A DNA stretch of 64,000 nt from Lacinutrix venerupis. Lineage in GTDB: Bacteria; Bacteroidota; Bacteroidia; Flavobacteriales; Flavobacteriaceae. The position numbers were made by a program, and so were the translations under genes. Each line of letters starts with the position of its first letter. Positions within the stretch are counted from its first letter, which is position 1. The DNA lies in assembly GCF_003663945.1 (NCBI RefSeq), contig NZ_RCCH01000003.1, positions 248,001 to 312,000 of the forward strand. The letters are read 5' to 3'. The notes beneath the pieces were generated by a model. The model was not told the DNA's origin and did not search any database. It saw only the letters and a program-made list of their open reading frames with translations. Of this stretch, positions 60,867 through 64,000 are shown in pieces.

Positions 60867-60940
60867 GGTCTGGTAGTTCAGTTGGTTAGAATGTCGCCCT
60901 GTCACGGCGAAGGTCGCGGGTTCGAGTCCCGTCCAGACCG
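60867..60940 (+). tRNA. tRNA-Asp (anticodon GTC)
   Basis: 74-nt cloverleaf: acceptor GGTCTGG with CCAGACC, discriminator G (as tRNA-Asp), D arm with AGTTGGTTA, anticodon stem TCGCC/GGCGA with loop CTGTCAC (anticodon GTC at 60901-60903), and T arm GCGGGTTCGAGTCCCGT. CCA is not encoded. Confidence 0.98.
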
Positions 60941-60950
60941 CAAAATTGCT

Positions 60951-60982: not shown

Positions 60983-61244
60983 CAAAAAATTTAGTTGTGT
61001 TGTTTTGATGGGTGTAGTAGTCCATCAAACTGGTAGAAAGCTAGTTAAATAGCTTAAACCAATGAGAAGCTTTCCTTTTTTCTTTATTGAAAATTGTGAA
61101 GCTTTTTTGTTTTTATAGAATTTTTATTGCTCTTTAACGTTTTTTTAATAAAAAAATAGCTACAATTCACGTTTGAGCAGTAATTTGAATCTCTTTATCG
61201 ATTTTTTTAAAAATTAACATTATATATTTTTTATATTAGCCGTA
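60983..61244. other. Gene-free AT-rich stretch between tRNA-Asp and the peptide array leader
   Basis: No credible coding region on either strand; the open frame on the minus strand from 61028 covers the tRNA and is spurious. One 8-bp inverted repeat is present (TTTGATGG 61004-61011 with CCATCAAA 61022-61029, 10-nt spacer). A TATATTAG at 61232-61239 is a two-base-imperfect -7 box and could mark the array promoter. Confidence 0.5.
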
Positions 61245-61360
61245 CATTATTGATTCCCTTAGCATTAACATGCTTCAATAATGACTCCATTGTATAGACT
61301 TTCTGTCTATAGTTTACTATTTATTTGTTTTTAAGTACTATTCAAAGTGGTAGCAATACC
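61245..61360 (+). promoter_or_regulatory. Structured leader region upstream of the peptide array
   Basis: Three hairpin-capable elements follow each other. (1) CATTATTGA (61245-61253) with TCAATAATG (61275-61283), enclosing a nested AGCAT-TAAC-ATGCT (61261-61274), giving 14 bp broken by one 7-nt bulge. (2) TATAGAC-TTTCT-GTCTATA (61293-61311), perfect 7-bp arms. (3) GGTA-GCAA-TACC (61349-61360), a GNRA-type tetraloop. They precede the first peptide start codon by 47 bp. The pairing is seen directly; a role as RNA leader or binding sites is inference. Confidence 0.45.
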
Positions 61361-61407: not shown

Positions 61408-61590
61408 ATGAAATTCCTTAAATTAACTTTAGTAGCACTTTTTTCAATTGGATTATTAACAGCTGTTTTACCTTCAAACAAAGTAGAACCAACAGTTGAA
61501 ACCACTAACCATGACCTTTCTAAGCCAGATTTAGACTTAACTGCATTTATAGAGCTTAAGAATAAAAGAAAAGTACCAACTCAAGGATAG
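61408..61590 (+). CDS. Small exported-looking peptide precursor, copy 1 of 7
   Basis: 60 residues. Basic start MKFLK, a 17-residue hydrophobic stretch (TLVALFSIGLLTAVL, about 6-21), then a charged ~37-residue tail. This looks like a Sec signal or an N-terminal anchor; a cleavage site after LTA (19) or near LPSN (21-24) is possible, with no lipobox and no cysteine. Tail variant: NKVEPTVETTNHD, then the conserved SKPDLDLTAFIELKNKRK and end VPTQG. Only this copy has Phe3 and a different upstream spacer, being next to the leader. Family not recognised. Confidence 0.8.
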   Translation: MKFLKLTLVALFSIGLLTAVLPSNKVEPTVETTNHDLSKPDLDLTAFIELKNKRKVPTQG

Positions 61591-61644
61591 ACTTTTCTAA
61601 TAAAACAATTTTCAATACAAATAATAACAATAAAAAATACACTT

Positions 61645-61827
61645 ATGAAATCCCTTAAATTAACTTTAGTAGCACTTTTTTCAATTGGATTATTAACAGC
61701 TGTTTTACCTTCAAACAAAGTAGAACCAACAGTTGAAACCACTAACCATGACCTTTCTAAACCAGATTTAGACTTAACTGCATTTATAGAGCTTAAGAAT
61801 AAAAGAAAAGTACCAACTCAAGGATAG
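61645..61827 (+). CDS. Small exported-looking peptide precursor, copy 2 of 7
   Basis: 60 residues, identical to copy 1 except Ser3 for Phe3. Same NKVEPTVETTNHD variable segment and VPTQG end. The near identity in DNA marks copies 1 and 2 as the most recent duplicate pair or as gene-converted. Preceded by a 54-bp spacer. Confidence 0.8.
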   Translation: MKSLKLTLVALFSIGLLTAVLPSNKVEPTVETTNHDLSKPDLDLTAFIELKNKRKVPTQG

Positions 61828-61879
61828 AATTTTAAAAGAACACATATAACTAGTAATAGCAACAATAAAAAATACACTT

Positions 61880-62062
61880 ATGAAATCCCTTAAATTAATT
61901 TTAGTAGCACTTTTTTCAATAGGATTATTAACGGCTGTTTTACCATCAAACGAAGTAGAGGTAACAGTTAAAACTACTAACCAAGACCTTTCTAAACCAG
62001 ATTTAGACTTAACTGCATTTATAGAGCTTAAGAACAAAAGAAAAGTACCAACTCAAGGATAG
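61880..62062 (+). CDS. Small exported-looking peptide precursor, copy 3 of 7
   Basis: 60 residues. Differs from copy 2 in Ile7 and in the variable segment (NEVEVTVKTTNQD): acidic Glu25, Val28, Lys31, Gln35. End VPTQG. The substitution pattern is concentrated between residues 25 and 37; the C-terminal block is unchanged. Confidence 0.8.
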   Translation: MKSLKLILVALFSIGLLTAVLPSNEVEVTVKTTNQDLSKPDLDLTAFIELKNKRKVPTQG

Positions 62063-62113
62063 ACTTTTAAAAAACACATATAAATAGTAATAGCAACAAT
62101 AAAAAATACACTT

Positions 62114-62296
62114 ATGAAATCCCTTAAATTAACTTTAGTAGCACTTTTTTCAATAGGATTATTAACAGCCGTTTTACCATCAAACGAAGTAGAACTAACA
62201 GTTAAAACCACTAAGCAAGACCTTTCTAAACCAGATTTAGACTTAACTGCATTTATAGAGCTTAAGAATAAAAGAAAAGTACCAACAGAAGGATAG
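62114..62296 (+). CDS. Small exported-looking peptide precursor, copy 4 of 7
   Basis: 60 residues. Variable segment NEVELTVKTTKQD (Leu28, Lys34). First copy with the alternative end VPTEG. Signal-like region identical to copy 2. Confidence 0.8.
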   Translation: MKSLKLTLVALFSIGLLTAVLPSNEVELTVKTTKQDLSKPDLDLTAFIELKNKRKVPTEG

Positions 62297-62349
62297 ACTT
62301 TTTAAAAGAATACATATAAATAGAAATAGCAACAATAAAAAATACACTT

Positions 62350-62532
62350 ATGAAATCCCTTAAATTAACTTTAGTAGCACTTTTTTCAATAGGATTATTA
62401 ACAGCCGTTTTACCATCAAACGAAGTAGAAGTAACAGTTAAAACTACTAAGCAAGATATTTCTAAACCAAATTTAGATTTAACTGCATTTATAGAGCTTA
62501 AGAATAAAAGAAAAGTACCAACAGAAGGATAG
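62350..62532 (+). CDS. Small exported-looking peptide precursor, copy 5 of 7
   Basis: 60 residues. Variable segment NEVEVTVKTTKQD followed by ISKPN (Ile37, Asn41 in place of Leu and Asp). End VPTEG. Most divergent copy in the 34-41 region. Confidence 0.8.
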   Translation: MKSLKLTLVALFSIGLLTAVLPSNEVEVTVKTTKQDISKPNLDLTAFIELKNKRKVPTEG

Positions 62533-62585
62533 ACTTTTTAAAAGAATACATATAAATAGAAATAGCAACAATAAAAAATACACTT

Positions 62586-62768
62586 ATGAAATCCCTTAAA
62601 TTAACTTTAATAGCACTTTTTTCAATTGGATTATTAACGGCTGTTTTACCATCAAACGAAGTAGAGGTAACAGTTAAAACTACTAACCAAGACCTTTCTA
62701 AACCAAATTTAGATTTAACTGCATTTATAGAGCTTAAGAACAAAAGAAAAGTACCAACAGAAGGATAG
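62586..62768 (+). CDS. Small exported-looking peptide precursor, copy 6 of 7
   Basis: 60 residues. Ile9 in the hydrophobic stretch; NEVEVTVKTTNQD; Asn41 as in copy 5; end VPTEG. Combines features of copies 3 and 5, which fits recombination between units. Confidence 0.8.
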   Translation: MKSLKLTLIALFSIGLLTAVLPSNEVEVTVKTTNQDLSKPNLDLTAFIELKNKRKVPTEG

Positions 62769-62820
62769 ACTTTTAAAAGAATACATATAAATAGAAATAG
62801 CAACAATAAAAAATACACTT

Positions 62821-63003
62821 ATGAAATCCCTTAAATTAACTTTAATAGTACTTTTTTCCATAGGATTATTAACAGCCGTTTTACCTTCAAACGAAGTAGA
62901 GGTAACAGTTAAAACTACTAACCAAGACCTTTCTAAACCAGATTTAGACTTAACTGCATTTATAGAGCTTAAGAACAAAAGAAAAGTACCAACTCAAGGA
63001 TAG
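62821..63003 (+). CDS. Small exported-looking peptide precursor, copy 7 of 7
   Basis: 60 residues. Ile9 and Val10; NEVEVTVKTTNQD; Asp41; end VPTQG. Last copy, 74 bp upstream of the TPR protein gene on the same strand with no terminator that I can see between them, so read-through into the TPR gene is plausible. Confidence 0.8.
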   Translation: MKSLKLTLIVLFSIGLLTAVLPSNEVEVTVKTTNQDLSKPDLDLTAFIELKNKRKVPTQG

Positions 63004-63077: not shown

Positions 63078-64000
63078 TTGAGGGCTTTTTTATTATTATT
63101 TTGTAGTTTTTTTGTCTTTTTTTCTTTTGCACAAAAAGAGAGAATTAACTCTACTTTAGATTCAATTATACTATATAGAGAATATTCTAAAAATAGTAAT
63201 CTAACATTTAAGCAACGCATATTATACGCAAATAGAGCAATAACTTTATCCTCCAGTTATAGTGAAGACTCTACATTAATTAAAAGCTATAAAGCTTTAT
63301 CTTCAATTTATTTAAATCAATTAAATACTTCAAAACTAAAATCTGTAAATTTTAAAATTGTCGACTTAGCTAATAAAGCAAAAGATACAGCGGCATTAGC
63401 AAATGCAAACTATATACTAGGTTATACTTACGATGTAGAGTCGAAACCAGATAGTGCTTATTTTTATTACTCAAGAGCTGTAAAACAATACGATGTAATA
63501 GGAGATAAAAAGGATTACATAAATGTTCTCTCTAATATGAGTGATATACAATATTATGAACGTGATTATGTAGGAGCAGAAATTAATATAATTAGAGCAT
63601 TAAAAATTTTAGAAACCTTACCTGAAACCGAAGATAATATTATTGTTAAATGGGAAAGATATAATGTTTTAGGCATTATTTCCGGTGAACTTAAAAATTT
63701 TGATAAAGCTCTTGAATATTATAACCTAACAAAAAAAACAGTAAAAAATTACTCGCAAGCTTATTATTATAATGTGTTTTCAAATAATAATATAGGATCC
63801 ATTTATAGAAGAAAAGGAGATTATAAAAAAGCTATTGAAATTTTTAACGAAATACTCGAAGACAAAACCTTATTAGATAACGACTCTTTATCTTATGCTG
63901 CTGTTAAAGCCAATTTAGCTTATTCAAAATATTTAAATAAAGATTTTGAAACACAAGAGGTTAATTCTCTATTTAAGGAATCTATTAAAATTTCTAAAGC
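63078..64000 (+). CDS. Exported tetratricopeptide-repeat protein, N-terminal part (continues beyond window)
   Basis: Open frame of 307 codons from TTG 63078 to the window end; no in-frame ATG precedes it. Signal peptide MRAFLLLFCSFFVFFSFAQ, then TPR-like helical repeats: ALANANYILGYTYD, YINVLSNMSDIQYYERDYVGAE, KWERYNVLGIISGELKNFDKAL, FSNNNIGSIYRRKGDYKKAIE, AAVKANLAYSKYL. In Flavobacteria such exported TPR domains commonly precede a membrane helix and a cytoplasmic LuxR-type HTH or histidine kinase; that part would be outside the window. It directly follows the seven-copy peptide array and may be the receptor. Confidence 0.8.
   Translation, partial: MRAFLLLFCSFFVFFSFAQKERINSTLDSIILYREYSKNSNLTFKQRILYANRAITLSSSYSEDSTLIKSYKALSSIYLNQLNTSKLKSVNFKIVDLANKAKDTAALANANYILGYTYDVESKPDSAYFYYSRAVKQYDVIGDKKDYINVLSNMSDIQYYERDYVGAEINIIRALKILETLPETEDNIIVKWERYNVLGIISGELKNFDKALEYYNLTKKTVKNYSQAYYYNVFSNNNIGSIYRRKGDYKKAIEIFNEILEDKTLLDNDSLSYAAVKANLAYSKYLNKDFETQEVNSLFKESIKISK

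Follow-up and report, generated by a model that had tools for sequence, protein, structure and literature searches.

Seven nearly identical small genes in a row raise two questions, namely what their product is and what in the cell would read it. The row lies near the end of a 64,000-nucleotide stretch of the Lacinutrix venerupis genome (G000:C3:248001-312000, from here on the window), beyond which reading was continued on the same contig.

The peptide genes and their C-terminal core

Between positions 61408 and 63003, seven intact open reading frames (ORFs) of 60 codons each lie head to tail on the forward strand, and no further copies were seen in the genome. These peptide precursor genes, copies 1 to 7, occupy 61408-61590, 61645-61827, 61880-62062, 62114-62296, 62350-62532, 62586-62768 and 62821-63003, with start-to-start distances of 237, 235, 234, 236, 236 and 235 bp and spacers of 51-54 bp. 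Tandem Repeats Finder (TRF) describes the same array with a period of 235, 6.9 copies, 94% matches and a score of 2689, and thus both the ORF calls and TRF bear out the original prediction, which had described seven intact 60-residue genes with a period of 234-237 bp. The count of copies per genome that it had proposed gives seven, since a genome-wide protein search (E up to 10) returned seven peptide matches, every one inside the array. Also as predicted, cysteine is absent from all seven peptides and residues 42-58 are invariant in all seven copies; position 41 is D or N and position 59 is Q or E, and the functional core in the window is taken to be about LDLTAFIELKNKRKVPT, then Q/E, then G. 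Within this core only position 59 varies, most of the copy-to-copy variation being confined to the linker. The multiplicity of genes had been ascribed to selection either on dosage, which is judged sensible, or on slightly different peptides, a reason that was dropped because the core differs only by the Q/E exchange at position 59. No match was found when Pfam was searched with the array peptides, and NCBIfam gave only chance-level matches (E 0.05 and above, far below cut-off), which agrees with the earlier statement that no named family was known.

Selection acts very unevenly along the precursor, with a dN/dS in the window array of 0.17 for the signal part (residues 1-22), 0.62 for the linker (23-41) and 0.09 for the core (42-60), the last resting on 34 synonymous versus 12 non-synonymous differences summed over 21 pairs. 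The C-terminal part had been called protected, with a ratio near 1 over residues 42-60 named as contrary evidence; the measured 0.09, against 0.62 in the linker, upholds the claim. In the arrays of three relatives (L016, L017 and L019) the core shows 0 non-synonymous versus 10, 16 and 38 synonymous differences, respectively. Between species the core does change, with a pN of 0.16-0.22 between the window and L016, L017, L018 and L019; the between-species core ratios, which are rough as synonymous sites are near saturation, gave no hint of positive selection. What selection maintains is the C-terminal unit of ~18 residues.

Relatives of the peptide are encoded at seven loci in Lacinutrix and Bizionia records, and the precursors collected over all loci (see below) were sorted into classes A to D, by eye; both these classes and the cutting of the core as the last 18 residues are our own choice. 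Class A is the window type (...SIGLLTAVLPS ... VPTQG), with tandem genes wherever the contig shows the array; class B is a lipobox type (LTSCTKQDLNEDDVL ... TGGGVDD) found mostly as single genes; class C reads LLLTVSGQSSD ... PTNG and class D ... RHVRKG..VPSNG. The core is multiplied by two routes, either as tandem genes or as repeats inside one precursor. Tandem copy numbers are seven in the window and L019, six in L029, five each in L016, L017, L023 and L025, four each in L014, L024, L027 and L021, two each in L026 and L056, and at least four in L109. Within single precursors, the core is repeated four times in L108, six times in L110, three times in L044 and twice in L103 and L104, with imperfect repeats in L105-L107. 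The precursor of L110 (1030-1401, oriented), which adjoins a TPR kinase, is Cys-rich and built of six near-identical CDDCAHDSDDRETLA units.

Regarding export, the 60-residue precursors of the array, which adjoin the kinase gene, carry a putative N-terminal signal sequence, predicted from hydropathy. In 59 of 94 precursors a Cys falls at residues 12-30, and what comes after it is mostly acidic, by a crude rule that counts at least L030-L034 and L067, which have no plausible lipobox, and misses L101 and L111; spurious ORFs of L109 and L112, recognised from their first residues, were kept out of this count as of the coevolution test below. More than half of the precursors have a lipobox-like Cys, and their peptides would be membrane-anchored unless released. 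In the part of the source available to us, lipoprotein surface export signals are given as K-(D/E)2 or Q-A-(D/E)2 for Capnocytophaga canimorsus and as SDDFE for F. johnsoniae (PMC5080379). Some precursors resemble these Bacteroidetes signals, for instance L115 (C-SNDDFENEE), and most of class B (C-TKQDLNEDD) fit them only loosely; precursors with such signals would allow surface display. Class A peptides, having no Cys, would be soluble after cleavage.

A sensor kinase, a regulator and a leader RNA beside the array

The original prediction, sound as to an exported-looking peptide with a protected C-terminus, overlooked that the array belongs to a cassette, in which it is joined by a kinase with TPR sensor, a response regulator and a structured leader RNA. 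The kinase frame opens ~60 bp after the last peptide gene. From frame, probable TTG start (63078) and Pfam matches, positions 63078-64000 of the forward strand hold the 5' part of the gene, coding for the signal sequence and the greater part of the TPR sensor; the gene continues past the window until its stop codon, whose last base is L008:4109 (65108 in window numbering), for a product of 676 residues. Its end is overlapped by the gene of a NarL-like response regulator (L008:4096-4794, beyond the window), which has 232 residues counted from the first ATG. On the kinase, TPR_12, TPR_2, TPR_1, TPR_8 and HATPase_c score above the Pfam cut-off; HisKA_3 (20.4 vs 24) and, in the regulator, the receiver (27.3 vs 30.2) and GerE (15.6 vs 23.5) fall below it but in the right order. 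Together with an N-terminal hydrophobic signal and a hydrophobic segment near residues 415-440, the only one besides the signal by inspection, this gives the succession of TPR, transmembrane segment, HisKA_3 and HATPase_c, then receiver and LuxR-type HTH, that marks a TPR-sensor kinase with a NarL-type regulator. H486, N596 and several glycines are invariant across 17 diverse kinases.

A model of the L009 sensor, made from four sequences (mean pLDDT 85.2, pTM 0.78), is an all-helical TPR superhelix followed by a long low-confidence helix. Its best PDB matches are LGN with partners and designed TPRs; other entries in the list are KLC1 in complex with a cargo peptide, RapF (3ulq) and the pheromone-bound Rap of phage phi3T (8rsv). 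The TM-scores of 0.4-0.6 show a common type of fold, which is no sign of kinship. In sequence-profile searches the sensor pairs with kinesin light chains and RapF and the kinase half with DesK and VraS chains; the NCBIfam models MctS, UhpB and LiaS also match the kinase half, all below their cut-offs.

The kinase genes of all five loci read for their start (L008, L009, L010, L013 and L014) have a TTG at the beginning of the signal sequence and no ATG in the first 30 codons. A missing ATG near the N-terminus is common in this kinase group, as the drop of the first-ATG count given below suggests, and a TTG start may hold the kinase level low.

Where the contig continues, class A loci share one gene order, namely a DUF58-type gene, tRNA-Asp, the tandem peptide genes, kinase, regulator, DUF456, penicillinase-repressor and, three genes downstream of the regulator, M56-peptidase, with the Pfam names of the neighbours tested in the window's own genome. 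The tRNA-Asp lies upstream of the array at 60867-60941 in the window and is present at all five loci scanned. Class B cassettes stand elsewhere, most often with a LacI-type regulator as upstream neighbour (e.g. L037, L039 and L047; Pfam LacI in L037), so that one cassette occupies different neighbourhoods. By inspection, the interval from array to regulator showed neither an exporter nor an immunity-like gene. A frameshift breaks the kinase of L012, and in both Lacinutrix neustonica loci (L012 and L023) the kinase, dnaE-like and BlaI-like frames are all interrupted, more likely by assembly errors than by decay.

The pairing of peptide and kinase extends well beyond the genus. The regulator is matched (E up to 1e-30) in all but one of the 13 genus genomes and in 235 of the 397 family genomes, and 60 loci were taken from the listed matches, from best to weaker, plus 20 mostly paralogous ones. 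The small-ORF filter asked for 40-90 amino acids, a hydrophobic N-terminus with a basic residue and no second hydrophobic stretch, on the same strand and ending no more than 400 bp upstream of the gene. An exported-looking small ORF passed it upstream of the kinase at 56/58 main and 16/18 paralogous loci, compared with 3/112 other genes of the same loci and 0/46 window genes under equal rules; the counts omit L009, L010 and L013, second copies of L019, L018 and L027, as well as L020 and L028 (contig edge) and L023, L075, L086 and L090, which have no intact kinase frame at the expected place. Taking the first ATG as start instead of the frame opening lowers the counts to 25/60 and 10/18 for the kinases (3/113 and 0/46 for the controls), because many of these kinases lack an ATG near the N-terminus. 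The filter misses L024 and L087, where a plausible shorter precursor begins inside a longer ORF, and L074, at a contig edge with a repeat-rich ORF; at L082 the kinase is present and no exported-looking small ORF was found upstream. Among 20 further family loci, of which a single genus (g127) contributes 12, 17 pass the filter at 500 bp and the remaining three carry longer precursors. In a phylum sample of 247 genomes, all 26 that the kinase profile found (E up to 1e-90) belong to the own family. Weaker TPR kinases pass in 2/16 cases in other families of the class, both with implausible ORFs, and in 0/4 cases in the own family, where L120 has a lipoprotein-like ORF of 63 residues. As far as these samples reach, the association belongs to one kinase group within Flavobacteriaceae.

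A structured leader RNA, 5' of the first peptide gene, occupies 61242-61312 of the forward strand and consists of a helix P1 with an inner hairpin, a conserved UCCAUUG and a hairpin P2. In an alignment of eight class A sequences it has 71 nt and 20 pairs, with 93.8% of cells paired. Eleven of the 20 pairs changed on both sides (shuffled mean 4.7, slid controls 0-4), the structure having been derived from the same eight sequences, some of them closely related. Folded alone, three of four leaders are more stable than their shuffles (z -4.1, -2.3 and -2.5), and the L026 leader, cut inside P1, shows no stability above shuffles (z 0.1). The model finds a single strong match per genome in 9 of the 13 genus genomes, plus one weak match (E 0.23). 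By coordinates, seven of the nine strong matches lie at this locus (G000, G001, G003, G005, G007, G008 and G012); that of G011 very probably does too and fits the L015 record, and no position was assigned to the ninth (G009). G002, which carries a swapped module, gave no match to the class A model.

Searched over the loci, the class A model gives seven strong matches (the window, L016, L017, L019, L025, L026 and L029). As its other nine matches reach only E 0.04-0.9, we do not claim one RNA family for all leaders. Most class B, C and D leaders carry TTAATWATCCATT...CCCTC, a pattern with 38 matches in 37 of 199 family genomes, compared with two occurrences of a reversed control pattern. With one exception (G111:C1:1578325), these matches stand roughly 2.2-2.5 kb upstream of the regulator gene, and the motif is therefore locus-specific and not a general riboswitch. 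Rfam returned one chance-level match, on the opposite strand, for the window leader, and tRNA only for ten further loci (E up to 1). An inverted repeat at 61293-61311 was considered as a DNA binding site for a regulator and rejected, since relatives show it to be hairpin P2 of the covarying leader.

Coevolution and exchange of core and sensor

Whether the core diverges together with its neighbour was examined over 93 loci with kinase frame and peptide, 89 of them also with an adjacent regulator, L021 and L109 being represented by one chosen copy. Core and sensor distances correlate with a partial r, given kinase and regulator, of 0.59 over the 89 loci, and of 0.84 in class A (13 loci), 0.61 in class B (22) and 0.60 in the main set (57). 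The observed value was reached in 0/300 permutations in each set, in a type of test (partial Mantel) that may exceed its nominal error rate and among adjacent genes that may share recombination. Given sensor and regulator, core and kinase show -0.12 over all loci, 0.14 in class A, 0.02 in class B and -0.02 in the main set. A point against coevolution of the core with the sensor is that the signal part of the peptide, too, correlates with the sensor, at 0.49 over all loci and 0.65 in class A, though at -0.01 in class B.

Sliding windows place the class B signal at sensor residues ~97-349 (0.27-0.55), with 0.16 and below beyond ~350; it thus falls in the TPR part (~120-350) and outside the kinase. 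Residues 1-109, which diverge fastest and lie nearest to the peptide gene, give only -0.06 to 0.14, and therefore neither rate nor mere linkage explains the core-sensor signal. In class A, values of 0.59-0.88 extend over ~49-421, with 0.49-0.50 ahead of that stretch, and N-terminal sensor windows also correlate (0.49-0.67), so that the correlation localises less than in class B. Windows over the kinase range from -0.17 to 0.13 in class B and from -0.34 to 0.29 in class A.

Nature has also exchanged the sensor. At L021, within the window's genus, the kinase domain is 84% identical to that of L016 and the sensor only 32%, the latter being 50-58% identical to class B sensors, and the identity switches near residues 430-450, at the membrane segment. 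IQ-TREE places this sensor in the class B clade (100/99) and its kinase with L016 (100/97), within a clade of six (99/97). L058 likewise has a class B sensor (100/99) on a kinase that groups with class C (99/91). Peptide type follows the sensor in both cases, three of the four L021 peptides being of lipobox type with a TGGEIDHTSTPED end. These two natural swaps suggest that peptide specificity could be movable between kinases. L029 is placed differently in the two trees, with a kinase branch that is long and weakly placed, and was not counted as a third swap.

Proposed function of the cassette and comparison with peptide-sensing systems

That peptide and TPR sensor are functional partners is strongly supported. 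Since the C-terminal unit changes between species along with the sensor, it is better understood as a ligand than as a free-standing exported peptide, and the reading we favour, at a probability of about 0.72, is that the seven genes supply the adjacent kinase with its cognate peptide ligand, their number raising the dose. Each precursor would be exported by its N-terminal signal sequence, predicted from hydropathy, and its C-terminal ~18 residues would serve as the functional core. Linkage, coevolution and the two swaps suggest that this core is read by the TPR superhelix of the kinase, a sensor domain that would be situated outside the cytoplasm; domain types suggest that the kinase then signals to the NarL-like regulator, and the structured leader at the array head may add control in cis. 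To the observed array, linkage, core selection and leader covariation, we thus add by inference binding, a direction of effect, processing, release and targets. The likeliest use would be autoinduction or cell-to-cell communication, with release from the cell as a putative pheromone; the outer membrane, which stands between periplasm and medium, counts against the pheromone. Against the favoured reading also weigh the dependence of the linkage count on the assumed kinase start, the lipobox-like Cys of many precursors, the TPR kinases of other families in the class that lack such peptides, and L082.

Linkage, coevolution and sensor swaps would be explained equally well if the peptide never passed between cells and acted either as a cell-autonomous periplasmic partner or sentinel, reporting on export, lipoprotein trafficking or envelope state, or as an inhibitor of the kinase. 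The Cys found near the N-terminus of so many precursors, mostly before acidic residues, and the unseen exporter gene both suit this alternative, which has no evident need for a core that turns over between species or is multiplied by two routes; we regard it as rather unlikely, and as the most serious competitor. Small, exported, amplified peptides that diverge between species and sit beside a regulator could also be what the system puts out, an antimicrobial or another effector secreted in amounts that the adjoining two-component system controls. Core divergence, however, follows the TPR sensor and neither the kinase nor the regulator, the peptide type goes with the sensor in both swaps, and inspection revealed no immunity-like gene between array and regulator, so that an effector role appears quite improbable. 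Synteny alone can hold neighbours together in close relatives, and the array could in principle be a chance neighbour of the kinase whose copies do no more than increase the amount of some unrelated small protein; this was dropped as hardly credible, because the association persists in different chromosomal neighbourhoods and in paralogous two-component copies, and because the coevolution is restricted to the sensor.

There is perhaps an even chance that the cassette represents a family-wide mode of peptide communication in the Gram-negative Flavobacteriaceae, in which exported peptides or lipopeptides would meet TPR sensor kinases outside the cytoplasm, with exchangeable types of peptide-plus-sensor specificity, dose set by arrays or multi-core precursors, and leader RNAs dedicated to the system. 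The RRNPP group of Gram-positive peptide signalling includes Rap-Phr, PlcR, NprR, AimR and others, and peptide-sensing two-component systems of Gram-positive bacteria include ComC-ComD-ComE and Agr. RRNPP systems encode a Sec-type propeptide of 10-100 amino acids beside a TPR receptor; here a precursor of 60 residues, predicted from hydropathy to be of that type, adjoins one, and the sensor model matches RapF and phi3T Rap by fold type, RapF also by profile; the TPR fold of the receptor is evident from the Pfam matches and the all-helical L009 model. Unlike there, the part of receptor falls to a sensor domain within a membrane histidine kinase that has a signal sequence and a transmembrane segment, and the host is Gram-negative. 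RRNPP peptides are imported and bind in the cytoplasm, and reimport would be unneeded here if the sensor faces outward. A survey of RRNPP systems, in the part of its text available, covers Firmicutes and viruses and receptors of 250-500 amino acids (PMC10075063). The present kinase, with 676 residues, a signal sequence and HATPase_c, is not such a non-kinase cytoplasmic receptor of 250-500 residues.

The cassette shares with ComC-ComD-ComE and Agr a peptide gene beside a histidine kinase and response regulator, and a ligand and sensor that co-diverge. Its sensor is a soluble TPR superhelix and theirs a polytopic membrane domain; moreover, no dedicated exporter gene was seen, the kinase is of DesK/NarX type with a NarL-like regulator, and by inspection neither a double-glycine leader nor, between array and regulator, an AgrB-like gene for the corresponding processing was found. 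Kinases of the DesK/VraS/UhpB type with NarL-type regulators are matched by the kinase half, and differ from the present case in the TPR sensor domain and the linked peptide genes. The cassette resembles Gram-positive peptide signalling in its logic without belonging to those families.

TPR sensor kinases are common in Bacteroidota, and to our knowledge their ligands are mostly unknown. As one large group of them carries a likely ligand next door, the question of what they sense becomes directly testable by means of a synthetic peptide. A literature search, which did not extend to bioRxiv preprints and most subscription papers, turned up no work on this cassette or on peptides as ligands of TPR kinases, and no description of a peptide communication system in Bacteroidota; if the peptide leaves the cell, this would be peptide communication in a phylum where none was found described. 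Directly upstream of two more distant TPR kinases of the same family (L116:1395-1541 and L117:1368-1475, kinase on the forward strand) there are short ORFs with no clear signal sequence, ending for example in MKKDVYLKNEILKLQPLGDEAVSSGDGDESNGSGEGG, which resemble RiPP precursors composed of leader plus core.
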